A stretch of DNA of 64,000 nucleotides from Hyphomicrobium zavarzinii ATCC 27496 (GTDB lineage Bacteria > Pseudomonadota > Alphaproteobacteria > Rhizobiales > Hyphomicrobiaceae): positions 108,987 through 172,986 of the forward strand of contig NZ_KB911263.1 in the NCBI RefSeq assembly GCF_000383415.1, given 5' to 3'. This document shows positions 39,259 to 56,016 of this stretch, piece after piece (position 1 is the first letter of the stretch; each line of letters begins with the position of its first letter). The notes below the pieces were generated by a model. That model had not been told where the DNA came from. It did no database searches and saw only the letters and a program-made list of their open reading frames with translations. Made by a program: the position numbers and the translations under genes.

Positions 39259-39864
39259 TTAGCCGCGATCGAGCGCGGCTCCGGCCACGGGTACCGGAGT
39301 TGCAGGCACCAGCGGCCCTTCCCAGTCGCGCCAGCCGTCCGTCCCCTCGGGGAACCAATAGAGAGTTGTATACCCGTACTCCGAAGCGCGCTTGGTCGCG
39401 TTCCAGCTCATCCAGCAATCCGCCTGGCAATAGAACACGAGCGCGCGCGCCCGGTCTCCCTGCGTCAGCCGGGCGAGTTCGTCCCTGAAGTAGGACTCCA
39501 TCAGCGGCGTAAGCGCGCCAGCCCCGACGTCCGGAAGCCACGTGGAGCCCGGAATGTGCTCATGCTGCCGGAGCATGCGCCACCGCCCCGACGCCGTGTC
39601 GAGCCCGGCTCCGTTGGACGGCATGACATCGATCAGAAGAGCACTCTTCTCCGAGACGAGACGCTTCACCGCTTCGGAGTCGACGCGCGCGCCGCCCGGA
39701 ACGCTCTCCGGCACAGGCGCGCGATAGCGCGAAATCCGATAGCCGGTCGCTGGATCGAAATTGTCCGCCGCATGCGCAAGCCCCGGCGCCGCGAGCATGG
39801 CGGCAACCAGCAGCCAGCACCGGCTCGATAACCGCGTCCCGCGCTCAGCGTGTCTCGGTCTCAT
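39259..39864 (-). CDS. PQQ-associated CxxxCW rhodanese-like protein
   Basis: The 201-residue protein has a signal peptide (CWLLVAAMLAAPGLAHAADN) and a rhodanese-like domain with LIDVMPSNGAG and the hallmark FYCQADCWMSWNATKRA (Cys-x3-Cys-Trp, about residues 144-149). This is the TIGR03865 family, which is found only beside PQQ-dependent alcohol dehydrogenase genes. It should act in the periplasm, probably on a thiol or sulfur carrier together with the SoxYZ-like protein at 42439. The gene overlaps the beta-propeller gene by 20 bp. Confidence 0.9.
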   Translation of the reverse strand: MRPRHAERGTRLSSRCWLLVAAMLAAPGLAHAADNFDPATGYRISRYRAPVPESVPGGARVDSEAVKRLVSEKSALLIDVMPSNGAGLDTASGRWRMLRQHEHIPGSTWLPDVGAGALTPLMESYFRDELARLTQGDRARALVFYCQADCWMSWNATKRASEYGYTTLYWFPEGTDGWRDWEGPLVPATPVPVAGAALDRG

Positions 39865-40852
39865 GGGTTCCGGACGTGTGCGTCGGCATGGGGCGGACCG
39901 CCGCGCCCCAAGGATAGCGGCCGACCTTGATGGATTTGATGGGCTTGCGCGTGCCGGTATCGATCACCGTCACGTCGTTCGACACCCCGTTGGTGGTGAA
40001 GAGCATGTTCTCCTCGGGCGTCAAAGCGAGATGCCAGACGCGCTGCCCCACCAGCACGTAGTCGATCACCTTGAGCGTGCGCGTATCCACGATCGCCACG
40101 CGGTTCGCCGGCCCGAGCGCAATGAACGCGGTGCCGCCGTCACTCGTGATCCGGATGCCGACCGGCTGCACGGAATCGCGGGCAACACCCGGAATTTCGA
40201 AGGTGAGCCGCGTTTCCACTTCCCTCTTCGCCATATCGATGATGCTCACCGTGCCGCCGATTTCGGAAGACACCCAGAGCTTCGAGCCATCCGGCGAGAA
40301 CTCGGCATGACGGGGACGCTGGTCCACGAGCACGTTCGCGACAACCTCGTTGGTCCGGGTGTCGATCATGTGCGCCATGTTGGTGGTCTCGGAGGTCGTG
40401 ACCGCGATGCTATCGTCCGGCGACACTGCCATACCCTCGGGCTCCACGCCCACATCCACCTGCGCCACCACCTTCCGCGATGGAATGTCGACGATGGTGG
40501 TCACCGCATCGTCCTCGTTGGCGATGTAGAGACGGCGCCCGTCGTGCGAGACCGCGAACTGTTCCGGGTCAGCGCCCGACGGAAGATTGTGAAGCAGCGT
40601 CTCGCCCGCCGCATCATAGACCTGCACCGCGTTGTCGTCGCTCGCGCACACGTAGAATGTCTTGAAGTCACGCGCGAACGTGACCCCGCGCGGACGCTTG
40701 CCCACCTTGAATGTTCGCACGACCTGAAGCGACTTCGTCTCGATGACGGAGACGGTGTTGTCCTTCTCGTTCGAGATGTAGACCTCGTGCGCCGCCGCGT
40801 AGGGACAAGCGAGCAGCGAGGCAACGGCGCAGGCAAGGCTGATGTGGCGCAT
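39845..40852 (-). CDS. PQQ-associated YVTN beta-propeller protein
   Basis: The 335-residue protein has a signal peptide (MRHISLACAVASLLACPYAA) and seven YVTN-type blades, each with a pattern like VYISNEKDNTVSVIETKSLQ, LYIANEDDAVTTIVDI and LFTTNGVSNDVTVIDTGTR. It matches TIGR03866, the propeller family co-inherited with PQQ alcohol dehydrogenase clusters. A periplasmic scaffold or cofactor-handling role is likely; the activity is not established. The ATG at 40852 gives the signal peptide; the longer open frame up to 41284 lies antisense to the divergent cytochrome gene and is rejected. Confidence 0.9.
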   Translation of the reverse strand: MRHISLACAVASLLACPYAAAHEVYISNEKDNTVSVIETKSLQVVRTFKVGKRPRGVTFARDFKTFYVCASDDNAVQVYDAAGETLLHNLPSGADPEQFAVSHDGRRLYIANEDDAVTTIVDIPSRKVVAQVDVGVEPEGMAVSPDDSIAVTTSETTNMAHMIDTRTNEVVANVLVDQRPRHAEFSPDGSKLWVSSEIGGTVSIIDMAKREVETRLTFEIPGVARDSVQPVGIRITSDGGTAFIALGPANRVAIVDTRTLKVIDYVLVGQRVWHLALTPEENMLFTTNGVSNDVTVIDTGTRKPIKSIKVGRYPWGAAVRPMPTHTSGTHETETR

Positions 40853-41112
40853 ATCGGAACCCTTGGCAAACACGGGAATGCAGGGCGCGGCGCACACGAG
40901 TTTTGGCAGCCCGCTTAAGAAACGAGCATGACAAACGCAAAATCCCAGAGATATTCGACCATGGTACAATGCCCGACAAAGAAGGGACTTTTCTGATCCA
41001 ATCGGGAAATTTGCACCAATGGGCAATATCGGTTCGCTCCGCGACCGACATAAGTTGCGCCTCCGCGAACCAACAAAGAAACGATGCGGGCAGGAAACCG
41101 GAGCGCTTTTGA

Positions 41113-41547
41113 ATGTTTGTACGTCCTTTCGTGGCGGCCCTCGCCGCGGCAATTCTATTGATTGCGACTGACAACACGCGCGTGCTCGCCCACGGCGACG
41201 TGACGCCCCAGCCGATCGATACGGCCGGCCTCGAGCCGCTCGGCGAGGAATGGCGCAAAGAAAATCCCTACCGGGACAACGCAAAGGCCATCGAGATCGG
41301 CGAGTCCGGCTACACGCAGAATTGTGCGCGTTGCCACGGCCTCGAAGTGATTTCGGGCGGCCTCGCGCCTGACCTTCGTCATCTCGACAAGGGTCCGGTC
41401 GGCGACGAATGGTTCATGGAGCGCATCCGCCACGGCGCGAAGAAGACCGACGGCACCACCATCATGCCGGCCTTCGAGGGCACCTTCAGCCAGGAGGCCA
41501 TGTGGGCCATCCGTGCCTACGTCGAGTCGAAATTCAGCGAGCAGTAA
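41113..41547 (+). CDS. pedF: Cytochrome c-550 PedF-type, electron acceptor of the quinoprotein
   Basis: The 144-residue protein has a signal peptide (about residues 1-27), then HGDVTPQPIDTAGLEPLGEE, one haem site NCARCHGLEVISGG (Cys71, Cys74, His75) and a likely axial Met in GTTIMPAFEGT. The sequence follows the PedF family, the cytochrome c550 beside Pseudomonas PQQ ethanol dehydrogenases. It should take electrons from the quinoprotein at 44387 and pass them to the terminal oxidase. It is the first gene of the plus-strand operon and is divergent from the propeller gene across 260 bp. Confidence 0.92.
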   Translation: MFVRPFVAALAAAILLIATDNTRVLAHGDVTPQPIDTAGLEPLGEEWRKENPYRDNAKAIEIGESGYTQNCARCHGLEVISGGLAPDLRHLDKGPVGDEWFMERIRHGAKKTDGTTIMPAFEGTFSQEAMWAIRAYVESKFSEQ

Positions 41548-41574
41548 GCGCCGAACCCAAGGAGGGCCGTGAGT

Positions 41575-42429
41575 GTGACCCACTCGCTCCTTCATCGCTT
41601 CTCTACGGTGCTGCTGGGGGCTGTCCTGATCTCGAGCAGCGTAACGGCGCGCCCTCTCGACGAGGTCATCGCCGAGGGTACCTTGCGCGTCATCGCCTAC
41701 CTCGACAACGCTCCGTTCTCCGAGGAGGAGAACGGCGTGCCGCGCGGAATAGATGTCGATCTCGCGCACGCCATCGCCCGCGAGCTCGGCGTCAAAGCCG
41801 AGGTTATCCTCAGGATGCAGGGCGAGAAAGCCGATGACGACTTGCGCGCCAACGTCTGGCGCGGCCCGCTGACCGGCGGCGGAACCGGCGACGTGATGAT
41901 GCACGTGCCCATCGATCGCGAGTTCGCGCTCCGCAATCGCGAAGCGGTTCTCGGCAACGCGTATTTTCAGGAACGCGTCGCCGTGGCCATTCATCCCGAG
42001 CTGACCGGAACAAATCCCAACTTCGATGTTTTCAAGACGAAGAAGATCGGCGTGCAGCTCGCGACGGTTGCCGACTACTTTCTAATGACCTACGAAGATG
42101 GAGCGCTCATCTCCAACGTTTCGCATCATGTGAAACCGGAGTTGGGAGCACGCGAGTTCATTTCGAAGGATACGGCCGCATTGATGGGGGTTCGTTCGAA
42201 AATCGAATCCCTCCTTCATCGCGACGGCATGAAGCCCACGCTGGTGGAACCGCCGATGCCCGGCATCGTTCGAACCGACTGGCTCGTCGGCATGGCGTGG
42301 AAGGAGAACAGCCGCGATCTCGGATACGCGATCGAGGCCGCCTTGAAGCGCTTGCGCGAAACCGGCGAACTATCCCGCATGTTCGAAGCCCACGGCGTCA
42401 CCTACGTGCCGCCACCTCCACCGCCCTAG
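41575..42429 (+). CDS. XoxJ/MoxJ-like periplasmic solute-binding protein
   Basis: The 284-residue protein has a signal peptide (STVLLGAVLISSSVTARP) and a type-2 periplasmic binding fold: GTLRVIAYLDNAPFSEEENG, GIDVDLAHAIARELGV and MMHVPIDREFAL. This resembles the MoxJ/XoxJ proteins that accompany quinoprotein alcohol dehydrogenases and are thought to activate them. A Pro tail (PPPPPP) ends the protein. The GTG at 41575 is favoured because it lies 8 bases after a GGAGGG site; the GTG at 41569 is too close to that site. Confidence 0.85.
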   Translation: MTHSLLHRFSTVLLGAVLISSSVTARPLDEVIAEGTLRVIAYLDNAPFSEEENGVPRGIDVDLAHAIARELGVKAEVILRMQGEKADDDLRANVWRGPLTGGGTGDVMMHVPIDREFALRNREAVLGNAYFQERVAVAIHPELTGTNPNFDVFKTKKIGVQLATVADYFLMTYEDGALISNVSHHVKPELGAREFISKDTAALMGVRSKIESLLHRDGMKPTLVEPPMPGIVRTDWLVGMAWKENSRDLGYAIEAALKRLRETGELSRMFEAHGVTYVPPPPPP

Positions 42430-42438
42430 GACACGCAC

Positions 42439-43269
42439 ATGATGCGCACGGCTTTCTTCCTGCTCTTTCTCGCAACCAGCTTCGGCATTGCATCGGCGGC
42501 ACCGCCGCAGGATCCTCTGCAATCTCCGAACTGGCAGGATATGGCCGAGCGGCTTCTCTCGGGACACGCCATCGAGTTCGACGAGCGCGTGAAGATCAGC
42601 GTGCCGTCGACCGTTGAAAATCAGGCTCAGGTACCTGTCACCGCCGACGCGCGCGCACTTCCGAACGTCGTGAAGATGATCGTGTTCGCCGATCTCAACC
42701 CGATCCAGCACGCGCTCACGCTAACGCCCGGCCAAGCCGCTCCCTTCATCTCGTTCCGCATGAAGATCGAGCAGGCAACGCCGATCCGCGCGGCCGCGCT
42801 GACGAGTGACGGGGTCTGGCACGTGGGCGGCATCTTCCTCAACGCAGCGGGCGGCGGATGCTCGGCTCCCGCGGTCGGGCGCGGCGAAGCCTCCTGGTCG
42901 GAAACGCTCGGCCAGGCAAGCGGACGCCTCTGGCGCGAAGCGGACGGCTTCTCGCGCCTGCGCTTCCGCATTCGCCATCCGATGGACACCGGCCTCGCGA
43001 AGGACAACACGCCCGCCTATTACATCGAGCGCATGGAGTTCAAGGGAAACAAGGGCGAGCCGCTTGCCTTGCTCGAGATGTATGAGCCCGTGAGCCAGGA
43101 TCCCACGCTCACGCTGCTGGTTCGCCTGCCCGCGGGCGACACCGCGCTCGACGTGCAGGGACGCGACAACAACGGCGCCATCTATCGCTCCTCCGTTCCG
43201 GCTCCCTGGCGGCAGAGCATCCTCGCACCTACGAAGCAGCTTCTCGAGCAGGGACCCGCACGATGCTGA
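42439..43269 (+). CDS. Quinoprotein-associated SoxYZ-like carrier
   Basis: The 276-residue protein has a signal peptide (FFLLFLATSFGIASAAPPQ), a SoxY-like domain ending in NAAGGGCSAPAVG (the GGC carrier cysteine near residue 141) and a SoxZ-like domain, with LRFRIRHPMDTGLAKDN followed by the YIERMEF strand. It matches the fused SoxYZ-related family (TIGR04557) that occurs only next to PQQ dehydrogenases. It is presumed to carry a sulfur-bound group in the periplasm. It starts 10 bp after the XoxJ-like gene and overlaps the next gene by 7 bp. Confidence 0.9.
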   Translation: MMRTAFFLLFLATSFGIASAAPPQDPLQSPNWQDMAERLLSGHAIEFDERVKISVPSTVENQAQVPVTADARALPNVVKMIVFADLNPIQHALTLTPGQAAPFISFRMKIEQATPIRAAALTSDGVWHVGGIFLNAAGGGCSAPAVGRGEASWSETLGQASGRLWREADGFSRLRFRIRHPMDTGLAKDNTPAYYIERMEFKGNKGEPLALLEMYEPVSQDPTLTLLVRLPAGDTALDVQGRDNNGAIYRSSVPAPWRQSILAPTKQLLEQGPARC

Positions 43270-44222
43270 CCCGCCGCAACGCGCTGAAACTCGTTGCCGG
43301 AGCAGCGAGCCTTCCCCTGCTTCCGAGCAAAGCGCACGCCGCGCCCCTCACCTACGAGCTGCGTCCCGAAAAGCTAGAGCAGGGCATCTGGATGGTGCCC
43401 GGTGCACAGCAGGCCATCACGCAGGAGAACGGCGGGGCCATCGCCAACATCACCATTCTCGACTCGTCCGCCGGCGCCATCGTCGTCGATACCGGTCCGT
43501 CGCTCCGCTACGGCGAGGCGCTCCTCAAGCTCGCCCAGGAGCTGACCGGCAAAAGCGTGGCGCGTGTGTACCTCACGCATTTCCATCCCGATCATTGCTT
43601 CGGAAACCAAGCCTTCGATCCGGCCCTCATCGCCACCACGCAGGGTGTTGTCGACGGCATGAAAGCCCTCGGCGAAGGATTTTCCGATTCCATGTATCAA
43701 ACCGTCGGCGACTGGATGCGCGGTACCGAGGTCGTTCTGCCTAAGGTCATCCTCTCCGCTCCGGTCGAGGATTTCGGTGATCGCCGCATCCGGGCTCTGC
43801 CGATGCGCGGTCACACCGCATCCGATCTCGTCCTGTTCGACGAGGTCTCGGGCGTCTTGATCTCAGGCGACCTCGTGTTCCTGGACCGCGCGCCGACCAC
43901 GCCGCACGCCGATTTTGAGCGCTGGCGCATCAGCCTCGCGAACCTGGGAGGAATTCCACACAATCGTCTCATCCCCGGCCACGGACCAGCCGAGCCCGGC
44001 GATCGCGGAATCCGCCAGACGCGCGAATGGCTCGAAGGCATCGAAGCCATGATCAGGGATGCCTTCGACCGCGGCCTCGACATGAACGAGGCCATGGCGC
44101 TGCCACTGCCGAAATGGGCCGAGAATATTGCGGTTTCTCGTTACGAGTACGAGCGCAGCGTGATGCATCTTTATCCGAAGCTCGAAGCCGAAAAACTTCC
44201 GCGCGTGGATCAGAAATCCTGA
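43263..44222 (+). CDS. Quinoprotein relay system zinc metallohydrolase
   Basis: The 319-residue protein begins with a Tat-type signal (TRRNALKLVAGAASLPLLPS), so it is probably exported folded. It has the metallo-beta-lactamase motif YLTHFHPDHCFGNQAF and later ligands in MRGHTASDLVLF, GDLVFLDRAPTTPH and PGHGPAEPGD. This is the SoxH-related family (TIGR04558/TIGR04559 type) seen with the SoxYZ-like carrier in quinoprotein clusters. It overlaps the carrier gene by 7 bp. It probably works on the product bound to the carrier cysteine, but the chemistry is unknown. Confidence 0.9.
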   Translation: MLTRRNALKLVAGAASLPLLPSKAHAAPLTYELRPEKLEQGIWMVPGAQQAITQENGGAIANITILDSSAGAIVVDTGPSLRYGEALLKLAQELTGKSVARVYLTHFHPDHCFGNQAFDPALIATTQGVVDGMKALGEGFSDSMYQTVGDWMRGTEVVLPKVILSAPVEDFGDRRIRALPMRGHTASDLVLFDEVSGVLISGDLVFLDRAPTTPHADFERWRISLANLGGIPHNRLIPGHGPAEPGDRGIRQTREWLEGIEAMIRDAFDRGLDMNEAMALPLPKWAENIAVSRYEYERSVMHLYPKLEAEKLPRVDQKS

Positions 44223-44227
44223 CGCAA

Positions 44228-44256
44228 TTGACATTTCACAAAGCTGCGACTTTAGG
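44228..44256 (+). promoter_or_regulatory. Candidate promoter of the PQQ dehydrogenase gene
   Basis: A perfect TTGACA lies at 44228-44233, with TTTAGG at 44251-44256 after a 17-base spacer. The -10 element is poor. The position, 131 bp before the dehydrogenase ATG and in a 164-bp gap, would allow separate transcription of this gene. Confidence 0.35.
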
Positions 44257-44386
44257 CGAATAGACCAATTGCCAATTATTCCCGACTTCAAGCTCGAATA
44301 ACGTCCTCTTCGACCTGCATTCTTCCCATTTCGTAGCGGGAAATAATCCGGAAGCAGGTGGGAAACGCAACAAGAAGGGGATCCCA

Positions 44387-46153
44387 ATGAAGTCCTGGAA
44401 AGTTTTGATCGCGCCAAGTGTGTGCGCGATGCTCGCAGGCTTGGCTGCACCTGCACTCGCCGACGTTTCAATCGAAGACATTGTGAACGACGCGACCACG
44501 ACGAACGACGTGGTCACCTCTGGCCTTGGAACGCAGGGCCAGCGTTACAGCCCGTTGAAGACCATCAACGCCGACAACGTCGCGCAGCTCGTGCCCGCCT
44601 GGGCCATGTCGCTCGGCGGCGAGAAGATGCGCGGCCAGCAGGCGCAGGCTCTCGTCAAGGACGGCGTGCTCTACGTTACCGGCTCCTACAGCCGCATGTG
44701 GGCCGTGGACGTGAAGACCGGCCGCGAGCTCTGGCAGTACGATCATCGCCTGCCCGAAGGCATTCTGCCGTGCTGCGACGTCGTCAATCGCGGTGCAGCC
44801 CTCATCAACGACAAGGTGATCTTCGGCACGCTCGATGCCAAGCTCGTCGCCCTCAACCAGAAGACCGGCAAGGTCGTCTGGACCAAGGAGATCGACGACT
44901 ACAAGGGCGGCTACTCCTACACCGCAGCCCCCCTCATCGTTCCTTCCAAGGCACACGGACCCATCGTGGTGACCGGCGTCTCGGGCGGCGAGTTCGGCAT
45001 CGTCGGCCGCGTCGAAGCGCGAAAGGTCGATGACGGCGAGCTGGTCTGGTCGCGCCCGACCATCGAAGGCCACGTCGGCACGCTCAACGGCAAGCCCTCG
45101 ACGATGACCGGCAAGCAGGGCGAGACCTGGCCGGGCGATCTTTGGAAGACGGGCGGCGGCGCCACCTGGCTCGGCGGCACCTACGATCCCGAGACCAACC
45201 TGATCTTCGTGGGCGCGGGCAACCCGGCTCCCTGGAACAGCCACATGCGCCCGGGCGACAACAAGTGGTCGTGCTCGCGCATCGCGATCGATCCCGAGAC
45301 CGGCAACATCAAGTGGGGCTATCAGACCACGCCGAACGACGGCTGGGACTATGACGGCGTGAACGAGGTGGTCTCTTTCGACCTCAACGGCACCAAGGCC
45401 GTGGCCACGGCCGACCGCAACGGCTTCTTCTACGTGCTCGGCCGCGAGGACGGAAAATTCATCTCCGCGACGCCGTTCGTCGAGCAGATTTCCTGGGCCA
45501 AGGAGATCGGCAAGGACGGCCGTCCGGTGTTCGATCCCGCGAACCGCCCGGGCGATCCGAAGAAGGCCGCTGATGGCAAGAAGGGCTCGTCGATCTTCGC
45601 CGTGCCGAGCTTCCTCGGCGGCAAGAACCAGCAGCCGATGGCCTACAGCCCCGACACCAAGCTCTTCTATGTGCCCGCCAACGAGTGGGGCATGGATCTC
45701 CACAACGAGCCCGTCACCTACAAGAAGGGCGCGGCCTACCTCGGCGCTGGCTTCACCATCAAGCCGATCTTCGAGGACCACATCGGCGCGCTGAAGGCCG
45801 TCGATCCGGCCACGGGCAAGATCGTGTGGACTTACAAGAACAGGGCGCCGCTGTGGGGCGGCGTGCTGACGACCGGCTCGAACCTTGTGTTCTTCGGCAC
45901 GCCCGAAGGCGAGCTCAAGGCCCTCGATGCCACGGACGGCAAGCAGCTTTGGAGCTTCAACACCGGCTCGGGGATCGTCGCTCCTCCGATCACCTGGGAG
46001 CAGGACGGCGAGCAGTACGTCTCCGTTCTGTCGGGCTGGGGTGGTGCAGTGCCTCTTTGGGGTGGCGAGGTCGCCAAGACCGTCGCCAACCTGAATCAGG
46101 GCGGCATGCTCTGGACGTTCAAGCTTCCTAAGAAGCTGGCCGAAGCCAAATAA
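44387..46153 (+). CDS. PQQ-dependent alcohol dehydrogenase, lanthanide type
   Basis: The 588-residue periplasmic quinoprotein has a signal peptide (residues 1-25), the vicinal disulfide pair in [11 protein letters not shown] (Cys129-Cys130), propeller W-motifs and the active site [15 protein letters not shown]. Asp321 is the catalytic base. The residue two positions on is also Asp (323), the feature that separates lanthanide-using XoxF/ExaF/PedH enzymes from calcium enzymes (Ala in MxaF). Other metal ligands are Glu202 in SGGEFG and Asn279 in GAGNPAPW. It lacks a fused cytochrome, so PedF should accept its electrons. The short form and the neighbours favour an ethanol/alcohol dehydrogenase of the ExaF/PedH branch. 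Confidence 0.93.
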
Positions 46154-46267: not shown

Positions 46268-47266
46268 ATGAGCATGCCACCGCCCGCCGCTCTCTCCGCG
46301 AGATCACGCATCTCGGTGCGCTACGCACTGGCGTTCGCCGCCCCGGCCTTGATTGCACTATGGGCCGTCTCGTCGGCAACGGCCCAGGCACCGGCCGAGA
46401 TCGATACGGCTCTGGTCCTTGCCGTCGACGTTTCAGACTCTGTGGACGAGGCCCGTTACAGGCTTCAGATGGAAGGCATCGCCCGCGCCATCGAGGACCC
46501 CGCCGTGCTCGACGCCATCACCGGCGGAGCGAAAGGCGCCATCATGCTCTCGCTCGTCGCCTGGGCGGACGACGCGAAGCTCGCGATGCCCTGGCAGTTG
46601 ATCCGAAATCAGTCCGACGCATTCGAGGTGGCACGGCGCGTTCGCAGCCTCCCCCATCACTCCGGCCAATACACCTGCCTCGCCCGCATGCTGCGGAGCG
46701 TCGAATCCGAAACGATGCCGGCTCTTCCCGCCCGCGCGGACCGCGTTGTCATCGACGTCTCCGGCGACGGCATCGACAATTGCGAGGTCTCCGCCGCTTC
46801 CAACACGGCACGCGACACGCTCGTGAAAGGCGGCGCAACGCTCAACGGATTGCCGATCATCGTGGCGGGCGAGAACGACGTCGTGGGCGCGGGAACCTTC
46901 CGCAGGCCTGGCTTCGCATTCGAAGACCTGGGGCTCGACCGCGATAGCACCACGCTTGACGCATGGTACAACGCCCACGTCGTCGGCGGGCCGGGAAGCT
47001 TCATCTCGCCCGCTGACGGATACGAGGACTTCGGCCGCTCCTTCCGGCGCAAGTTCATCACCGAGATCAGCGCGCCGGCTTCAACGCCCCTTCATCTCAC
47101 GCCCTCCGCCAGACGCGCCTTGAGCGCCGCGTCGAACCGCGACGACATGAAGAGCCACAGCCCCGCAACCGGGATCGAAGCGAGCGCGACGGCCGCGAGC
47201 GGCAGCCCCATCGCCTTCGTGAGCCCGTTGAACACCGCCCCCGACAGCGCATCTCCTCCGCGATAG
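46268..47266 (+). CDS. DUF1194 (von Willebrand A-like) secreted protein
   Basis: The 332-residue protein has a signal peptide (about residues 18-42) and a DUF1194 domain: IDTALVLAVDVSDSVDEARY, a MIDAS-like metal motif D-x-S-x-S, and DRVVIDVSGDGIDN later, and it ends at GYEDFGRSFRRKFITEIS. The family is periplasmic with unknown ligand. Homology ends near residue 275. The last 58 codons run into the convergent exchanger gene (175-bp overlap) and read as a low-complexity tail. It follows the quinoprotein operon behind a terminator. Confidence 0.87.
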   Translation: MSMPPPAALSARSRISVRYALAFAAPALIALWAVSSATAQAPAEIDTALVLAVDVSDSVDEARYRLQMEGIARAIEDPAVLDAITGGAKGAIMLSLVAWADDAKLAMPWQLIRNQSDAFEVARRVRSLPHHSGQYTCLARMLRSVESETMPALPARADRVVIDVSGDGIDNCEVSAASNTARDTLVKGGATLNGLPIIVAGENDVVGAGTFRRPGFAFEDLGLDRDSTTLDAWYNAHVVGGPGSFISPADGYEDFGRSFRRKFITEISAPASTPLHLTPSARRALSAASNRDDMKSHSPATGIEASATAASGSPIAFVSPLNTAPDSASPPR

Positions 47267-48925: not shown

Positions 48926-51082
48926 TCAGAACTCGACCTTGCCCGAGAGCAGGAACGTCCGGCCCTGGTTGGCGATCGGCACCAGCGTTCCGCCGAACGC
49001 GTTCGCCCGGTCGATGTAGTAGGTGTCGAACAGGTTCAGCACATCGGCACGAAGCGTCAGGCTCTGAGCGAAGTTCGGGACCCACTGGGCGTAGATGTTG
49101 TGAACGTCATAGCCCTCGAGAACCCCATACGGGCCTCCGGGACCCGGCACGAACTCCAGGTCGTCGTAGTCGAACACGATCTGCGACAGGAAGCCGACCG
49201 CCAGCCCCGTGTTCGCGAACTCGTAATGGCCGTATATCTTGAGCTGGTCGCCGATGGGCGTGCCATAGTACCAGCTCGTGGTCGTCAACGGCCCGTCTCC
49301 GTACTCGGTGACCGCATGGATGTAGTTGGCGCCGATCGTGCCGGAGCGCCACGAATAGCGCGCCGAGACGTCCACGCCGCGGGTTTCGATGTCGTCGTCG
49401 TTCACGACCACCGCGCAGCTGGGGCAGACCGGATCCTGGATGCGCGTGTTGAAGTAGCTGGCCTCGATCAGGAGGCCGCTCTCCGAGAACTGCAGACCGG
49501 CCTTGTAGCTTTCCGAGTTCTGCGGATCTAGTCCCGGGGCGTACGCCGAGGGATTGTTAGGCCGCAGCAGCATCGCCTCGTAGAGCGGAATGCCGCCGAA
49601 GCTGTAGCCGTAGGATGCCTTCGCCGTGATCTGACGCGTGAGGTCGTACTCGAGCGCGATGTTGGGGCTCACCCCGCTCGTGTCGAGATCGCTCCCATCC
49701 GCGGCTTCGAGCCTGTTGGCGTCCGCACGCAGACCGGTCGAGACGCGCAGATGCTCGATCGGCTCGAAGCGGTACTGCACATAAGCGCCGAAGTTGGTGA
49801 GCGTCTCGCCGAAGCGGCCCGCAAAATTCACGTGCATGTTGGAGGGATGCACGGTCGTCGTCTCGTCACGATAGAAGTCCACGCCCGCCGTGAGCTTTCC
49901 GGGGCCGACCACGAAGGTGTTCTGCACCTTTCCGCCGATGCTCTCGATATCGACAGTGCCGTAAGCGGTGCATCCGAAGCTGGCCGCCGCCACGCCGCAC
50001 ACCCCGGCCGGCCGGCGCCGCTCGAGCTGGCTGTCGTTGTAATAGAAAGAAACCTCGGGATCGTACCAGGCCGTCGGCCGGGTCGTGCTGTACTGGAACG
50101 TGTAGGTATCGCGCTCGGAGATCGCGAACGCGGGACCAAAGCCCGGATGCAGCACGCTGAGGTTGGTGCGGAATGGGCGAAGGCCCTCGTCGCTGATGTG
50201 TTCCGCTGACGCCGAGAAGCGATGCCCATCGGCCGACTCATAGGCCAGCTTGCCAAGGTAGTTCACGAGATCGACATCCGTCGCGGCCACGATGTTGCCG
50301 CGGCCGTCCTCGTAAGCATCCCCGTCCGATCCCGACGCATAGCCGAGGATCTCGAAGCCATTGCTCTTTCCGTAGGCGGCGCCACTCTTCTTGAACACGT
50401 TCGCATTGGTATCGTAGCTGAGCTCGGCAAAGCCGCCGAGCTTTTGGCCCTCTTTCAGAAGGTCGGAGACGTCTTTCGTCGTGTAACGGATGGCGCCGCC
50501 CAGCGCGTTGGGGCCAGCGTCTGCGCTCGAGACACCCGCATCGACGGCAACGCCCTTCAGCATTGAGGGATCGATGACGTTGTTCCCGTTGTGGTGGAAG
50601 CCGTTGCGCTGCGCCTGCCGCGCGCCGTCGATCTGCACATTGAGCATCGTCTCCTCAATGCCATGCACGTAGACCTTGGTGCTCGATTGCGTGGTACCGC
50701 CCGCCGTGACCGCCGTCTCGCGGGAATAGAGATCCTGGATGTTCTGCGGCTGCGTCCGCGCCAGCTCCCCTTGCGTGATCGTGACATCAGCCCCCTTGCC
50801 CAGCGGACCTTTGACGGTCACCTGATCGACTGGTAGCTCGGCGGACGATTCCGGCTCGGCCACAGCTTCGAGAGGCGCGGGAGCGGGCGCTTTCTTCTTT
50901 GCCTTGCTCTTGGCAGGCTTGGCAGCTTCGACCGTGATCGGCGGCAGCGGCTGACTTTTGTCAGCCGCGCTCTGAGCCTGTGCGGCGCCGGGCGCAGCCA
51001 ACATCAAGGCAACCAGCGATAATCCGTACCCGCCAGCGGCCCCCCGGCCGGCTGAGCGCACTCCGCATCCAACTTTAGTCAT
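48926..51082 (-). CDS. TonB-dependent outer-membrane receptor
   Basis: The 718-residue receptor has a signal peptide (SLVALMLAAPGAAQAQ), an unusually Ala/Lys/Pro-rich linker (AAKPAKSKAKKKAPAPAPLE), and a plug domain with TQPQNIQDLYSRETAVTAGG, IDGARQAQRNGF and GALGGAIRY-like residues. The large beta-barrel ends RTFLLSGKVEF with a terminal Phe. One surface loop has DPVCPSCAVV. The ATG at 51082 follows GGGGGACTGG; upstream ATGs would extend it without benefit. It is divergent from the AraC gene and likely imports a ferric siderophore through the ABC system at 52357-56016, though the ligand is not identified. Confidence 0.9.
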   Translation of the reverse strand: MTKVGCGVRSAGRGAAGGYGLSLVALMLAAPGAAQAQSAADKSQPLPPITVEAAKPAKSKAKKKAPAPAPLEAVAEPESSAELPVDQVTVKGPLGKGADVTITQGELARTQPQNIQDLYSRETAVTAGGTTQSSTKVYVHGIEETMLNVQIDGARQAQRNGFHHNGNNVIDPSMLKGVAVDAGVSSADAGPNALGGAIRYTTKDVSDLLKEGQKLGGFAELSYDTNANVFKKSGAAYGKSNGFEILGYASGSDGDAYEDGRGNIVAATDVDLVNYLGKLAYESADGHRFSASAEHISDEGLRPFRTNLSVLHPGFGPAFAISERDTYTFQYSTTRPTAWYDPEVSFYYNDSQLERRRPAGVCGVAAASFGCTAYGTVDIESIGGKVQNTFVVGPGKLTAGVDFYRDETTTVHPSNMHVNFAGRFGETLTNFGAYVQYRFEPIEHLRVSTGLRADANRLEAADGSDLDTSGVSPNIALEYDLTRQITAKASYGYSFGGIPLYEAMLLRPNNPSAYAPGLDPQNSESYKAGLQFSESGLLIEASYFNTRIQDPVCPSCAVVVNDDDIETRGVDVSARYSWRSGTIGANYIHAVTEYGDGPLTTTSWYYGTPIGDQLKIYGHYEFANTGLAVGFLSQIVFDYDDLEFVPGPGGPYGVLEGYDVHNIYAQWVPNFAQSLTLRADVLNLFDTYYIDRANAFGGTLVPIANQGRTFLLSGKVEF

Positions 51083-51130
51083 TCCAGTCCCCCAAATACC
51101 CCAGTCACTCTGCATAACCTTGACTGTTAC

Positions 51131-51147
51131 TTTCAAGTTTATAAGTT
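51131..51147. promoter_or_regulatory. Tandem AAGTT direct repeat in the TonB/AraC gap
   Basis: AAGTT occurs at 51135 and again at 51143 (period 8) in an A+T-rich patch between the divergent TonB receptor and AraC genes. AraC regulators usually bind direct repeats, so this is a candidate site. The repeat is too short to be certain. Confidence 0.25.
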
Positions 51148-51309
51148 GGGGCCTAGCATGCCCAGCGGCGATGCCTTTGCGCGATCGCCAAAGGTTTTTG
51201 ACGAAACAGCGGTTTTCCGGTCGTCCGTTAGAAACGAACACGGATGCCGGTATCAAAGCCGGGGGGCGGAACGGACGAGCGCCGGACCGACACGTTCGGG
51301 GGAAAGTAG

Positions 51310-52314
51310 ATGGCCATCACCACAGACGTATCGAGGGGATGCGAGCGCCCGCAGGTGAGCTGTGCGGAGATCTCGCGCCAGATGCACCACGCCGGCACCG
51401 ACCACACGTTCATCCGGCCGGATCTCGAACCCAGCGACAACGCGATCGAGGGCCGCTTCCTGCTCTGCCGCCTCAAGTCCGGCATCGTGCTCCACGCGAC
51501 CGAGATCAGGGATCTGCACGAGATGACGACGCAGCTCGTCGCCGGGCCGGACCTCACCTTCTTCGTCGTGCTGGATGGCCTCGTCGACTTCTCCATCGAC
51601 AACCGCCAGTTTCTCGCTGCGGACCGCCGCAACGCCCTGCGGAATGCCGACTGCAGCGCGCTGATGCTGACGGAACACGCCGTCATGACACGCCGCGCTC
51701 ATAAGGGCGACCGCACCCGCAAGGTCACCGTCTCCGTCGATGGAGACTGGCTCGCGGAGATGGCCGACGGCAGCAACGGACAGCGTCTGCGCCAGTTCAC
51801 GACGTCGCATCTCTCGCACGCCACCTGGCGGGCCTCCCCGCGCCTGCTCGCGCTGGCCGAGCAGATCCTCAATCCACCCGACCACTGCACCGTTCTCAGG
51901 GACATGTACATCGAAAGTCGCAGCATCGAGATGATCGCCGAAGCCGTCTCGACCCTCGGCGGCGAGGACGCGCCCGCAATCACCACCGGGCTCGCGACAC
52001 GCGATGCCCGCAAGGCGCGGGCGGCGCGCGACTACATCGAGGCCAATCTCGACAAGGTGCTGAGCCTCCCGGAGATCGCGCGCGAGATCGGCGTGAGCCC
52101 CACCTCGCTGCAGCGCCGCTTCAAGGCGGCATACGGAACCACGGTTGTCGATTTCCTGCGTGCACGAAAGCTCGACAAGGCGCGCGACGCACTCGAACGC
52201 GACGGCCTCAGCATCGGAGAAGCCGCCTTCCTCGCCGGTTATTCGAACCCGGCCAACTTCACCACTGCATTTCGCCGCGCCTTCGGCATCCTGCCCAAGG
52301 CGATCAAGCGCTAG
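51310..52314 (+). CDS. AraC family regulator, PchR-like
   Basis: The 334-residue protein has an N-terminal ligand domain (FIRPDLEPSDNAIEGRFLL, VVLDGLVDFSIDNRQFL) and a segment LRDMYIESRSIEMIAEAVST typical of PchR-type siderophore-sensing activators. Two AraC helix-turn-helix motifs follow (LPEIAREIGVSPTSLQRRFK and IGEAAFLAGYSNPANFTTAF). Its place between the divergent TonB receptor and the siderophore ABC operon fits an activator of both in response to the loaded siderophore. This role is inferred from family and context. Confidence 0.9.
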   Translation: MAITTDVSRGCERPQVSCAEISRQMHHAGTDHTFIRPDLEPSDNAIEGRFLLCRLKSGIVLHATEIRDLHEMTTQLVAGPDLTFFVVLDGLVDFSIDNRQFLAADRRNALRNADCSALMLTEHAVMTRRAHKGDRTRKVTVSVDGDWLAEMADGSNGQRLRQFTTSHLSHATWRASPRLLALAEQILNPPDHCTVLRDMYIESRSIEMIAEAVSTLGGEDAPAITTGLATRDARKARAARDYIEANLDKVLSLPEIAREIGVSPTSLQRRFKAAYGTTVVDFLRARKLDKARDALERDGLSIGEAAFLAGYSNPANFTTAFRRAFGILPKAIKR

Positions 52315-52356
52315 CAGAGCGCGGCCCTGCCTCTCATCCAACCGAAAGGAAACCTC

Positions 52357-53298
52357 GTGATCGGTCTCATCTGCGTGCGCTGGCACAAGATCCGCGTGAG
52401 TGCCCTCGCGGCAGCCTGCCTCGCCCTGATCGGTCTCGCTGCGCCCGCCCGGGCCGAGCCAGTCGTCGTCAAACACGTGCAAGGCGAGATCACGCTGCCG
52501 GCAAGGCCCCAGCGCGTCGTCACGCTCGACTTCACCTCACTGGAGACGCTCGACGCGCTCGGCGTGCCCGTCACCGGAGTGATCGGAACGCTGCTGCCCG
52601 ATCACCTCGCGAAGTACAAGGACGCAGCCTACGTCAAGGCCGGGACCCTGTTCGAGCCAGACTACGAGGCCATTAACGCCATCAAGCCGGACCTGATCAT
52701 CGTCGCCGCCCGCTCCGGGCCGAAGCTTCCCGAGCTCGCCAGGATCGCGCCGACCATCGATCTCACGGTCGACGAAGCCAACTATGTGGCGAGCGCGCTT
52801 GCCAACGCGCGCACCCTCGGACGCATCTTCGGCAAGGAAACCGAGGTCGAGGCCCTGATCGGCAAGCTCGAAGCCTCGATTGCGGCCTTGCGCACGAAAT
52901 CTGCAACCGCCGGCAAAGGCCTCATCGTTCTGACCACCGGCGGAAAGATGAGCGCCTACGGCCCCGTCTCGCGCTTCGGCGCCGTGCATCGCGATTTCGG
53001 CTTCGCGCCGGCTGTCGAGAGCCTCGATAAGGCGGTGCACGGACAAGGCATCTCTTTCGAGCTGATCCTCAAAGCGAACCCCGACTGGCTGTTCGTGATC
53101 GACAGAGACCTCGCCGTGGGACGCACCGGACAACCCGCAGCCCAGTTGCTCGAAAATCCCCTCATCGCCCGCACCACGGCCTGGCAGAAGAAGCAGGTCG
53201 TCTATCTCGATCCCGTGCGCTGGTATCTCGTGGGCGGCGGCTTGCCGTCGCTTCAGAACTGCGTCGAGCAGATCGCCCAGGCGATCGAACGGAAATAG
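52357..53298 (+). CDS. Siderophore ABC transporter substrate-binding protein (FatB/YclQ-like)
   Basis: The 313-residue protein has a signal peptide (AACLALIGLAAPARAEPVV) and the class III binding fold: GEITLPARPQRVVTLDFTSL, LGVPVTGVIG, AINAIKPDLIIVAARSG, VVYLDPVRWYLVGGGLPSL. The W-Y-L-x-G-G-G end is typical of the catecholate/petrobactin/anguibactin-type FatB/CeuE/YclQ group. The start is GTG at 52357 with AAGGA 7 bases upstream. It begins the operon that continues with two permeases and an ATPase. Confidence 0.9.
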   Translation: MIGLICVRWHKIRVSALAAACLALIGLAAPARAEPVVVKHVQGEITLPARPQRVVTLDFTSLETLDALGVPVTGVIGTLLPDHLAKYKDAAYVKAGTLFEPDYEAINAIKPDLIIVAARSGPKLPELARIAPTIDLTVDEANYVASALANARTLGRIFGKETEVEALIGKLEASIAALRTKSATAGKGLIVLTTGGKMSAYGPVSRFGAVHRDFGFAPAVESLDKAVHGQGISFELILKANPDWLFVIDRDLAVGRTGQPAAQLLENPLIARTTAWQKKQVVYLDPVRWYLVGGGLPSLQNCVEQIAQAIERK

Positions 53299-53340
53299 CA
53301 CCCGCCGCCCCGTCCGCCAAACTATCGAGCGAACACCGCC

Positions 53341-54303
53341 ATGCTCCCCATCGCCCTGGGCATCGCCATCGTCGTGAGCCTCGCGCTCACGAGCCTGTTC
53401 ATCGGCGCAAGCGACGTGACCCTTTCCACGTTGCTCGAATCCGGATGGCAGGACGGCCCCATGCAGGTCCTTCTCATCAGCCGGCTTCCGCGAACGCTTG
53501 CGCTTATTCTCGCAGGTACCGCGATGGCGGTTTCAGGCACCCTCATGCAGATGCTAGCCCGCAATCGCTTTGCCGAGCCGTCAACCGTGGGAACGGTCGA
53601 AGCCGCGAAGCTCGGCTTTCTTACCGTGCTCATCGCAGCTCCCGGCGCGCCCATCTTCGTAAAGCTGATCGTGGCATCCATCTTCGCCCTCGCCGGAACC
53701 GCGATCTTTCTTCGCATCCTCCAGCGGCTCCCCCTGCACTCGACCCTCATCGTGCCGCTCATCGGCATCCTTCTCGGCGGCGTCATCAACGCGGTCGCAA
53801 CCTTCATCGCCTACCGGTTCGAGCTGATCCAGTCGCTCGAATCCTGGAGCACGGGCGACTTCTCGATGATCCTGAGCGGCCGCTACGAGTTGCTCTGGCT
53901 CGCGTTCGCCTTGACCGTGATCGCCTATCTCATGGCCGATCGTTTCACCGTCGCCGGCATGGGGCGGGATTTCACCGTCAATCTCGGGCTCGACTATCGC
54001 TCGGTCGTCTCTATGGGCTTGATCATCGTCTCGGTGGTGACGGCCGTCGTCGTCGTAACCGTCGGCATGATCCCCTTCCTCGGGCTCGTGGTGCCGAACC
54101 TCGTAAGCCTCACCCTGGGCGACAACGTCCGGCGCACCGTGCCATGGGTGGCGCTCCTCGGCGCGGGGCTCGTGCTCGCCTGCGACATCGCCGGACGCCT
54201 GATCAACGCGCCTTACGAGATCCCCATCGGGACCATGCTCGGCGTCGTGGGCAGCGCCCTCTTCCTCCATCTCCTGTTGCGCAAACATGCTCGCCTGGCT
54301 TGA
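53341..54303 (+). CDS. Siderophore ABC transporter permease 1 (FatD/YclN-like)
   Basis: The 320-residue membrane protein has about nine helices and FecCD family features: RLPRTLALILAGTAMAVSGTLMQ at the N-terminal side, LARNRFAEPSTVGTVEAAKLG, and the EAA-like GMIPFLGLVVPNLVSL loop that contacts the ATPase. It overlaps the next permease gene by 17 bp. The YclN/FatD branch is distinct from the FepD/FhuB permeases. With the second permease it forms the inner-membrane channel. Confidence 0.92.
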   Translation: MLPIALGIAIVVSLALTSLFIGASDVTLSTLLESGWQDGPMQVLLISRLPRTLALILAGTAMAVSGTLMQMLARNRFAEPSTVGTVEAAKLGFLTVLIAAPGAPIFVKLIVASIFALAGTAIFLRILQRLPLHSTLIVPLIGILLGGVINAVATFIAYRFELIQSLESWSTGDFSMILSGRYELLWLAFALTVIAYLMADRFTVAGMGRDFTVNLGLDYRSVVSMGLIIVSVVTAVVVVTVGMIPFLGLVVPNLVSLTLGDNVRRTVPWVALLGAGLVLACDIAGRLINAPYEIPIGTMLGVVGSALFLHLLLRKHARLA

Positions 54304-55261
54304 TCCCGCCCACCGCCGCCCGCTGCAGGTCATCGCGGCGCTCGCCGTCGCCACCCTGCTCGCCGCCGTCGCGTTCATGACGGTCGGCGCCAAAGGTCAA
54401 TGGGATTTCGTGCTTCCCTTCCGCGGCACCAAGCTCGCGGCCATGGCGCTCGTGGCCTACGCCATCGCCGTCTCAACCGTCCTGTTCCAGACGGTGACCG
54501 CCAACCGCATCCTCACCCCATCGATCATGGGATTGGACTCCCTCTACATCCTGATCCAAACGAGCCTCGTCTTCGCGGTCGGCAGCTCCCGCGTCACGAC
54601 ACTCGGCCCGCAGGCGCTGTTTCTCACCCAATGCGCCGCCATGATCGCCTTCTCCTGGATGCTATACCGCGCGCTGTTCTCGGGCCGCATGCAGAGCCTG
54701 CATCTGGTTCTTCTGGTGGGGCTCGTGCTCGGCGTTCTCTTTCGCAGCCTCTCGAACCTTATGCAGCGCATCATGGCGCCGAACGAGTTCGTGGTGCTGC
54801 AGGACCGCCTCTTCGCCAACTTCAACACCGTGCACAGCGACGTGCTGCTCATCTCAGCCGTCGCTCTCGTCGCCGCCACGTTGCTCGGCTGGCGCCACCT
54901 TCGCACCTTCGACGTGCTGGCGCTCGGACGCGACGCCGCCATCAGCCTCGGCGTGGACTACAAGGCGACCGTGACACTGATCCTCGTGATCGTGTCCGTC
55001 CTCGTCTCGGTCTCGACCGCCCTCGTCGGCCCGGTTACCTTCTTTGGCTTGCTCATCGCGAGCCTCGCTTATCAGATCACCGGCTCATCCAAACATATCC
55101 ATGTTCTGCCGGTGGCCATCCTGCTCGCCATCCTCACCCTCGTCGGAGGCCAGATCGTCCTCGAGCGGGTGTTCGCCTTCGAAACCGCCCTCAGCATCAT
55201 TATCGAGTTCGCTGGCGGCATCGCCTTCATCATTCTCACCCTTAGAAGTGCACAACGATGA
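54287..55261 (+). CDS. Siderophore ABC transporter permease 2 (FatC/YclO-like)
   Basis: The 324-residue membrane protein is the second FecCD-type permease, with FRGTKLAAMALVAYAIAVST, ILTPSIMGLDSLYILIQT and the cytoplasmic coupling loop GPVTFFGLLIASLAY. It overlaps the first permease by 17 bp and the ATPase gene by 4 bp (ATGA), so the three are translated together. The order of substrate-binding protein, two permeases and ATPase is that of FatBDC-type systems. Confidence 0.92.
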   Translation: MLAWLDPAHRRPLQVIAALAVATLLAAVAFMTVGAKGQWDFVLPFRGTKLAAMALVAYAIAVSTVLFQTVTANRILTPSIMGLDSLYILIQTSLVFAVGSSRVTTLGPQALFLTQCAAMIAFSWMLYRALFSGRMQSLHLVLLVGLVLGVLFRSLSNLMQRIMAPNEFVVLQDRLFANFNTVHSDVLLISAVALVAATLLGWRHLRTFDVLALGRDAAISLGVDYKATVTLILVIVSVLVSVSTALVGPVTFFGLLIASLAYQITGSSKHIHVLPVAILLAILTLVGGQIVLERVFAFETALSIIIEFAGGIAFIILTLRSAQR

Positions 55262-56016
55262 TCGAGACAAAGGCCCTGACGAAGAGCTACGGCAGCGCCG
55301 TTGTCGTCGACAACGTCTCGCTCAGCCTCCCGCGCGGCGGCATCACGTCCATCATCGGCGCGAACGGAGCGGGCAAGTCAACGCTGCTCGCGCTCATCAG
55401 CCGCCTGCTGACGCCGACAGCCGGTTCGGTCACGGTCGATGGCCTCGATGTTGCAACCACCGCCGGGGACGTGCTCGCGCGCCGCCTCTCGATCCTGCGG
55501 CAGGACAACCACATCGCCGCCCGCCTCACCATTCGCGATCTCGTGGCCTTCGGGCGTTACCCTCATTCCAAAGGCCGCATGACCGCCGAGGACCAGAGGA
55601 TGGTCTCGGAAGCCATCAGCTATTTGGCGCTCGACGACATCGCGGACCGCTTTCTGGACGAGATCTCCGGCGGCCAGCGCCAGCGGGCCTTCGTGGCCAT
55701 GGTTCTGTGCCAGAACACCGACTACGTGCTGCTCGACGAACCCTTGAACAATCTCGACATGAAGCACGCGGTCGGCATGATGAAGCTGTTGCGGCGCATC
55801 GCCGATGACCTGAAAAAGACCTTCGTCATCGTCATCCACGACATAAATTTCGCATCCATCTATTCGGACCGCATCGTGGCCATGCGAGATGGCATCGTCG
55901 TGCGCCAGGGCTCGCCTGCGGAGATCGTGAGAACCGACGTTCTGCGTGAGATCTTCGGCATAGACATCGCCATCCACGAGGTCGATGGCCACCGCGTGGG
56001 GCTGTACTACCTCTAG
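55258..56016 (+). CDS. Siderophore ABC transporter ATP-binding protein (YclP-like)
   Basis: The 252-residue ATPase has Walker A IIGANGAGKSTLL (about residues 30-42), Q-loop SILRQDNHIAARLT, ABC signature LDEISGGQRQRAFVAM (about 135-150), Walker B YVLLDEPLNNLDM and the switch His in IVIHDINFA. It closes the siderophore operon. The convergent DHPS-like gene follows after 27 bp. Confidence 0.93.
   Translation: MIETKALTKSYGSAVVVDNVSLSLPRGGITSIIGANGAGKSTLLALISRLLTPTAGSVTVDGLDVATTAGDVLARRLSILRQDNHIAARLTIRDLVAFGRYPHSKGRMTAEDQRMVSEAISYLALDDIADRFLDEISGGQRQRAFVAMVLCQNTDYVLLDEPLNNLDMKHAVGMMKLLRRIADDLKKTFVIVIHDINFASIYSDRIVAMRDGIVVRQGSPAEIVRTDVLREIFGIDIAIHEVDGHRVGLYYL

Follow-up and report, generated by a model that had tools for sequence, protein, structure and literature searches.

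A three-gene SoxYZ-like add-on of methanol- and ethanol-type PQQ alcohol dehydrogenases, at a Hyphomicrobium zavarzinii locus and in other Pseudomonadota

The window analysed here, a 64,000-nucleotide stretch of the genome of Hyphomicrobium zavarzinii ATCC 27496 (contig NZ_KB911263.1), carries at positions 39259 to 46153 a cluster of seven genes around a pyrroloquinoline quinone (PQQ) alcohol dehydrogenase. As an earlier note made from the letters of the window had described, these genes form two divergent arms, a layout that gene positions and family profile scores bear out (Table 1). The hydrolase start overlaps the carrier end by 7 bases. In profile searches, all genes except that of the binding protein match named families above curated cut-offs, so that six of the proposed families stand. 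The exception had been called XoxJ-like; it is a weak family-3 solute-binding protein, for which no match to TIGR03871 (XoxJ/MoxJ-type) was reported at E 0.001. A paralogue in the same genome (locus L023) scores 280.5 bits with that model, and no convincing similarity between the two proteins was found. Our focus is on three of the seven genes, those of a fused SoxYZ-like carrier, a metallo-beta-lactamase-fold hydrolase and a CxxxCW rhodanese-like protein. Loci and genomes are referred to by L and G codes, and the taxonomy of survey genomes likewise by code (e.g., genus g6).

Table 1. Genes of the window cluster with a conserved neighbour (window positions), and homologous genes at other loci discussed in the text
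Feature	Position	Strand	Evidence
CxxxCW rhodanese-like protein, 201 amino acids (module gene X)	39259..39864	-	TIGR03865 203.6 bits (cut-off 128.05); PF00581 32.8 bits
YVTN beta-propeller, PedA2-like, 335 amino acids	39845..40852	-	TIGR03866 499.5 bits (cut-off 287.3)
Cytochrome c-550, PedF-type	41113..41547	+	TIGR04494 195.2 bits (cut-off 122)
Family-3 solute-binding protein, PedG position	41569..42429	+	PF00497 36.9 bits
Fused SoxYZ-like carrier, 276 amino acids (module gene C)	42439..43269	+	TIGR04557 213.1 bits (cut-off 140); PF13501 and PF08770
Metallo-beta-lactamase-fold hydrolase, 319 amino acids (module gene M)	43263..44222	+	TIGR04558 363.2 bits (cut-off 300)
PQQ alcohol dehydrogenase, PedH class, 588 amino acids	44387..46153	+	TIGR03075 752.8 bits (cut-off 480.05)
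DUF1194 protein downstream of the cluster, conserved neighbour	46268..47266	+	PF06707 168.6 bits
Degenerate-ligand hydrolase, beside ethanol-class carrier	L102:8585-10237		Alignment
Degenerate-ligand hydrolase, beside ethanol-class carrier	L104:8743-10014		Alignment
Degenerate-ligand hydrolase, beside ethanol-class carrier	L105:10311-11312		Alignment
Degenerate-ligand hydrolase, beside ethanol-class carrier	L106:8585-9601		Alignment
Degenerate-ligand hydrolase, beside ethanol-class carrier	L109:8588-9541		Alignment
Degenerate-ligand hydrolase, beside ethanol-class carrier	L110:9383-11278		Alignment
Degenerate-ligand hydrolase, beside ethanol-class carrier	L112:10310-11275		Alignment
Degenerate-ligand hydrolase, beside ethanol-class carrier	L113:8624-9565		Alignment
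CxxxCW counterpart of the decayed gene in L172	L171:2389-3000		
CxxxCW counterpart of the decayed gene in L172	L173:817-1428		

The dehydrogenase shows an adjacent Cys-Cys pair (129-130), a WDYDG motif and a catalytic D321 followed two residues on by D323, as is usual in lanthanide enzymes. Its best solved relatives are 6zcv and 6zcw (827 bits), which we take to be structures of PedH. With the family match, the Cys pair and the extra lanthanide Asp all in place, the enzyme is predicted from its sequence to be PedH-type and lanthanide-using, and the PedF-type cytochrome is its predicted electron acceptor.

In the carrier, SoxY and SoxZ domains are fused in one frame with an arm, NAAGGGC(141)SAPA, placed between them. 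The arm cysteine, C141, is kept in 79/79 carriers, and their alignment has no other Cys column. SoxY structures are the top fold matches of the carrier model (predicted local distance difference test score, pLDDT, 88.6; the stretch 141-150 is less certain, with a block mean of 66). The protein is nevertheless distinct from canonical SoxY (TIGR04488, 49.2 against a cut-off of 125 bits), since its GGGCSAP arm is interior and not a C-terminal GGCGG. Its nearest named relatives are from Hyphomicrobium metagenome assemblies, and a contig search with the window protein returned three Hyphomicrobium loci only.

The hydrolase begins with a twin-arginine stretch, TRRNALK, in agreement with the twin-arginine translocation (Tat) export signal claimed for it. 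It belongs to TIGR04558 (quinoprotein relay zinc metallohydrolase 1) and, by alignment, has the full set of metal ligands, HxHxDH (H106, H108, D110 and H111) with H184, D203 and H240; this two-metal set is also intact in 52/65 homologues. The best fold match of its model (pLDDT 94.6) is 8d2z, and the neighbours are mixed, comprising lactamases, a dehalogenase, alkylsulfatases and the PqsE protein. The GloB (glyoxalase II type) model gives 19.9 bits against a cut-off of 200.8. The third protein combines the rhodanese fold with two cysteines and a tryptophan in the active loop, and C146, C150, W151, N155 and R159 are invariant in 45/45 CxxxCW proteins.

Clusters of this kind have been published as ped and xox clusters, the present one being of the PedH type, and the association of the three genes with PQQ dehydrogenases is already in print. 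The ped cluster of Pseudomonas putida KT2440 (PP_2666, pedA2 PP_2669, pedF, pedG, PP_2677, PP_2678 and pedH; PMC12997753) has the same complement of PedF, binding protein, SoxYZ-like carrier, SoxH-like hydrolase, PedH-type dehydrogenase, rhodanese-like protein and propeller. The window cluster differs in that no PedE, PedI or PedS/PedR genes lie inside it, in that the divergent arm itself holds the CxxxCW and propeller genes, and in that its binding protein fits no specific family model. Further reports place soxH next to xoxF5 (PMC5934484) and deal with PP_2675/2676 (PMC12016510); the excerpts of PMC12423496 and PMC13088180 mention, respectively, no SoxH, XoxF or lanthanide and no carrier or hydrolase locus tags, and none of the terms looked for turned up in PMC7391723 or PMC8969499. 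An assigned reaction for the carrier, hydrolase or CxxxCW families was not found in the open-licence PubMed Central literature, and to that extent the earlier statement that none is assigned holds.

Across a survey set of 397 Pseudomonadota genomes, 57 have a fused carrier (over cut-off in one open frame), 116 a methanol/ethanol-type PQQ dehydrogenase (TIGR03075), 46 the CxxxCW protein and 86 the hydrolase (one model, E 1e-38). The nesting is without exception, as all CxxxCW genomes have the carrier (46/46) and all carrier genomes the dehydrogenase (57/57). Of the 57 carrier genomes, 56 have the hydrolase, and in the last, G384, a purpose-made profile found it in L109; conversely, 30 of the 86 hydrolase-positive genomes are without a fused carrier. 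The earlier proposal that these families occur almost only in such clusters is thus accurate for the carrier and the CxxxCW protein and weaker for the hydrolase. As to the sample, 10 of the 57 carrier genomes fall in one genus code (g6), and 11 genomes over the carrier cut-off, none of them on the dehydrogenase list, were left out, a stop codon splitting their soxY-like and soxZ-like parts. From the 281 genomes without a methanol/ethanol-type dehydrogenase, 160 were randomly sampled; none of the 34 among them that have only a membrane PQQ (glucose/quinate) dehydrogenase over cut-off has the carrier, compared with 57/116 (Fisher 7e-9). The three genes depend on alcohol dehydrogenases and not on PQQ in general.

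The same picture emerges locus by locus, the 40 control loci being taken from 37 genomes out of the 59 with a dehydrogenase and no carrier. CxxxCW genes are found at 45/76 carrier and 0/40 control loci, hydrolase genes at 61/76 and 1/40; at control locus L169 the hydrolase homologue is divergent and its set of ligands is broken. PedC (23/76 versus 16/40) and the propeller (36/76 versus 18/40) do not differ, and because it is equally common with and without the carrier, the propeller is a cluster partner outside the three-gene set. Carrier, hydrolase and CxxxCW protein constitute an optional three-gene add-on of methanol/ethanol-type PQQ dehydrogenases, a definition that is new and that we refer to as the module. 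A search for module remnants in the 40 control loci gave weak matches to the CxxxCW query (L138, L144, L146, L153 and L162) and to the carrier query (L134 and L142), which we take as artefacts of over-long query reading frames; a match in L172 is a decayed gene, described below.

A lanthanide-type dehydrogenase is present at 40 of the 44 carrier loci that have a dehydrogenase in reach. Such a frequency would suit a module that delivers lanthanide or zinc, or handles PQQ, in the periplasm. The other four loci (L114, L124, L125 and L129) have only calcium-type enzymes in reach, so a lanthanide enzyme is no strict requirement for the module, and 23 genomes (24/40 control loci) have a lanthanide-type dehydrogenase without a carrier. 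Since, in addition, the transport-related PedC and propeller genes are not enriched with the carrier, we regard metal or cofactor handling as very improbable. A general lanthanide chaperone or generally required maturation factor was rejected, given that the lanthanide-type enzymes of those 23 genomes keep their Cys pair.

The module comes in two forms that match the class of the dehydrogenase. In quick trees made without bootstrap, the carriers show one deep, fully supported split into 28 and 51 rows. Loci of the 28-row clade have ethanol-type dehydrogenases only (PedH or calcium relatives, with quinohaemoprotein bystanders in L121 and L125), and those of the 51-row clade methanol-type only (XoxF plus small Acc and Vcc groups). 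Similarly, full support unites the 28 ethanol-class hydrolases in one clade, and 32 of the 33 methanol-class ones group in another. Exceptions to this pattern are L088 and, at L105, L109 and L110, three additional copies that are divergent. The GGGC arm is present in 28/28 ethanol-class and 0/51 methanol-class carriers, and this signature predicts the class of the partner dehydrogenase. By genome, 19/19 with the ethanol-class carrier only have an ethanol-type dehydrogenase, 29/32 with the methanol-class carrier only have a methanol-type one (G185, G306 and G396 were not assigned), and 6/6 with both carriers have both. Agreement is therefore seen in 54/57 genomes, with three not assigned and no mismatch among the dehydrogenases sampled per genome, the class of G000 being assigned separately from motif and locus data.

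Two further observations concern these trees. Fused carriers at L026:9958-10776 and L120:9535-10365, with no dehydrogenase, hydrolase or CxxxCW gene in reach, are sister rows. The dehydrogenases at L066, L068, L069, L072 and L074, next to methanol-class carriers of genus code g6, form an odd group in which NPFDYD and VCCG replace the WD.DG and CCD motifs seen otherwise.

The two arm signatures recall a study of lucinid symbionts, which described soxYZ-S2 and soxYZ-S4 fusions with soxH beside a PQQ alcohol dehydrogenase (S2) or xoxF (S4) and speculated that they might shield methanol dehydrogenase against thiosulfate or act in carbon metabolism (PMC11237559). Fused carrier and soxH beside a quinoprotein are common to both data sets, and, by their description, S2 and S4 resemble our two carrier clades, A and B. 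That study named the link in symbionts; the present analysis covers 397 genomes and adds the CxxxCW partner, the hydrolase tree, the dehydrogenase class and losses of the module.

One such loss is visible in G058, which shares its genus code with G139 and G062. Its dehydrogenase locus, L142, is about 93-94% identical to L121 in the flanks on both sides, while carrier and hydrolase are absent between the stop of the binding protein (8621) and the dehydrogenase (8763), which is kept as an open frame with about 94% DNA identity. At the transporter locus L172, compared with L171 and L173, PedC is kept (97% protein identity) and the response regulator is open, and the CxxxCW gene (L172:1065-1431) has decayed into two fragments (residues 1-52 and 113-202) with about 51% identity and a broken frame. 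In this one case, then, the CxxxCW gene decays once carrier and hydrolase are gone, and the dehydrogenase and PedC do not. A genome that shed the module and kept its dehydrogenase is clean test material.

These findings bear on the proposal of a 2026 ped review that such genes serve maturation, redox control or PQQ protection (PMC12997753), for instance by forming the disulfide of the adjacent cysteines, loading PQQ or metal, or keeping the redox state of the dehydrogenase. Strict co-occurrence with these dehydrogenases and the class match would be expected of such a helper, as would the thioredoxin-like gene reported beside the M. extorquens homologues (PMC12997753). The Cys pair, however, is present in 90/90 dehydrogenases read, with or without the module, the lanthanide Asp is kept at the 24 control loci lacking it, and the G058 enzyme has stayed open after its loss. 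Moreover, the ethanol-class carrier label changes 11 times on the dehydrogenase tree (FastTree), and a carrier with a single cysteine cannot make its own disulfide. A maturation or redox helper is unlikely on this evidence.

A Sox-like thiol cycle run on carbon, by which the module would dispose of the toxic aldehyde made by the dehydrogenase, is the possibility we tentatively prefer, at clearly less than even chance. The chemistry that we infer would take place in the periplasm. The arm cysteine of the carrier would capture the aldehyde as a hemithioacetal. Oxidation of this adduct, perhaps by the dehydrogenase in a second step that passes electrons to PedF, would give a thioester. The hydrolase might then release the acid and free the carrier thiol, and the CxxxCW protein could keep that thiol clear of disulfide or sulfane sulfur, as SoxS/SoxW are thought to do for SoxYZ. 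Relative to the Sox thiosulfate pathway (SoxYZ, SoxAX, SoxB and SoxS), with which it would share the fold and the logic of a thiol that is loaded oxidatively, relieved of its product by hydrolysis and kept reduced, the aldehyde-making quinoprotein would stand in for SoxAX, the lactamase-fold hydrolase for SoxB and the CxxxCW protein for SoxS. The window carrier differs in being fused and in its interior GGGCS arm, and neither SoxAX nor SoxB is among the seven cluster genes. A similar sequence from thiol-bound aldehyde through thioester to acid is familiar from glutathione-dependent formaldehyde oxidation (FrmA/FrmB), which uses a small cytoplasmic thiol and NAD instead of the periplasmic protein thiol and quinoprotein proposed here.

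Dependence on alcohol dehydrogenases, the class match and the coupled loss fit a carbon cargo that comes from the dehydrogenase. Likewise, a CxxxCW protein that never occurs without the carrier, with carriers that sometimes occur without it, fits a role in the care of the thiol. If the module serves as a side route for disposing of aldehyde that has stayed in the periplasm, the dehydrogenase would work without it and many lineages could lose it. The relay suggested in the earlier note, in which a putative covalent aldehyde or acyl adduct on the carrier thiol would be released by the hydrolase, is thus partly supported, as it agrees with the single arm cysteine, the ligand set intact in most hydrolases, the distribution, the class match and the coupled loss.

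Several points weigh against this thiol cycle on carbon. We know of no adduct, activity or phenotype of the module. The fold neighbours of the hydrolase do not choose a substrate, and the class match may stem from inheritance of the whole operon. In eight hydrolases (Table 1), NHDYHGH replaces HHDHHDH in the alignment with carrier and carrier cysteine kept, so hydrolysis at the metal site cannot be universal. Seven of these eight genomes are without CxxxCW (7/11 versus 1/46, p 9e-6), a link that may be a single event, as seven of the eight degenerate hydrolases form one clade. Within the ethanol class, an aldehyde dehydrogenase gene is not rarer at carrier loci (9/23 against 8/24), and the module as a substitute for that gene is accordingly unsupported. 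P. putida transposon data obtained without rare earths show minimal effects (PMC12997753), and XoxF1 of M. extorquens, an organism with homologues of all three module genes (PMC12997753), is reported to make formaldehyde and not formate (PMC6414531); the cycle, if real, would hence be a side-path and not the main flux.

A last point against a carbon cargo is the enrichment of SoxB, found in 28/57 carrier genomes and 8/59 dehydrogenase genomes without a carrier (p 4e-5; 16/33 versus 8/46 by genus, p 0.006). It raises a serious rival, which we find doubtful but which keeps real weight because of this enrichment: the carrier would trap periplasmic thiosulfate, sulfite or sulfane sulfur, the hydrolase would free it in oxidised form and transfer of sulfane sulfur would fall to the CxxxCW protein, the whole sparing the PQQ dehydrogenase from poisoning. 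Each of the three module folds also occurs in sulfur metabolism. A protective role against thiosulfate or sulfur nucleophiles has been proposed (PMC11237559, PMC12997753) with reference to thiosulfate inhibition of methanol growth in Hyphomicrobium denitrificans, and a Sulfurimonas strain in which SoxH replaces SoxB is cited in PMC11237559. On the other side, a SoxB match is missing in 29/57 carrier genomes, the association is weaker within families (p 0.095), the carrier is absent from all 34 sampled genomes with membrane PQQ enzymes only, and a guard of a general kind would not have to come in forms specific to a dehydrogenase class. In H. denitrificans, the YeeE-like pmpA/pmpB near a SoxYZ fusion and SoxH beside a PQQ enzyme showed no thiosulfate response (PMC11582611). 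The idea that the module is part of Sox was dropped, the same 29 genomes being without a SoxB match despite the enrichment.

Rare-earth alcohol dehydrogenases are widespread in Pseudomonadota. The three families that accompany them are now defined as a module and pose a well-bounded question, the two leading mechanisms predicting a carbon adduct and a sulfur adduct, respectively. Were the thiol cycle on carbon to hold generally, a Sox-type cycle would have been turned from sulfur to carbon, with a periplasmic protein thiol, in place of glutathione or some other small thiol, as cofactor of quinoprotein aldehyde oxidation in two forms adapted separately, one for one-carbon and one for longer alcohols; this broader claim we hold with some scepticism. 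The cycle, if real, would provide a protein-thiol route for aldehydes outside the cytoplasm.

The host genome (4.65 Mb, 15 contigs) has five fused carriers in total (window and L023-L026), two true split soxYZ pairs (L027 and L028) and eight PQQ dehydrogenases over the TIGR03075 cut-off. Its SoxB lies at C2:849013 beside split soxYZ, and pqqC is present in two copies on two contigs other than that of the window. L025:16499-18319 encodes a binding protein of the XoxJ family (TIGR03871) whose C-terminal part resembles ankyrin repeats; it lies beside a locus that has a carrier alone and a two-component pair of its own. The DUF1194 gene downstream of the cluster recurs near such clusters in the host and relatives (L061, L062, L023 and L085). 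Also near the cluster, window positions 48926-56016 encode a TonB-dependent receptor, an AraC-type regulator and a siderophore-type ABC transporter (solute-binding protein, two permeases and ATPase); the top-scoring models are those of iron/catechol uptake, none of them reaching its cut-off.

A gene resembling S-formylglutathione hydrolase, by our own reading of the sequence, occurs in 11 carrier loci (e.g., L068:586-1446) and in 0 controls. A small exported-looking protein with conserved cysteines (C...CxC...CF; L023:9080-9466, L081:12353-12694 and 15 others) is found at 16/48 methanol-class and 0/28 ethanol-class carrier loci and at 1/4 XoxF controls; a Pfam search with one member gave no match. 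A single scan of viral contigs, with one methanol-class carrier as query, found no phage-borne carriers. Carrier relatives do occur on 104 plasmid records, mainly of Sinorhizobium (57) and Azospirillum (14), and the module can thus be plasmid-borne.

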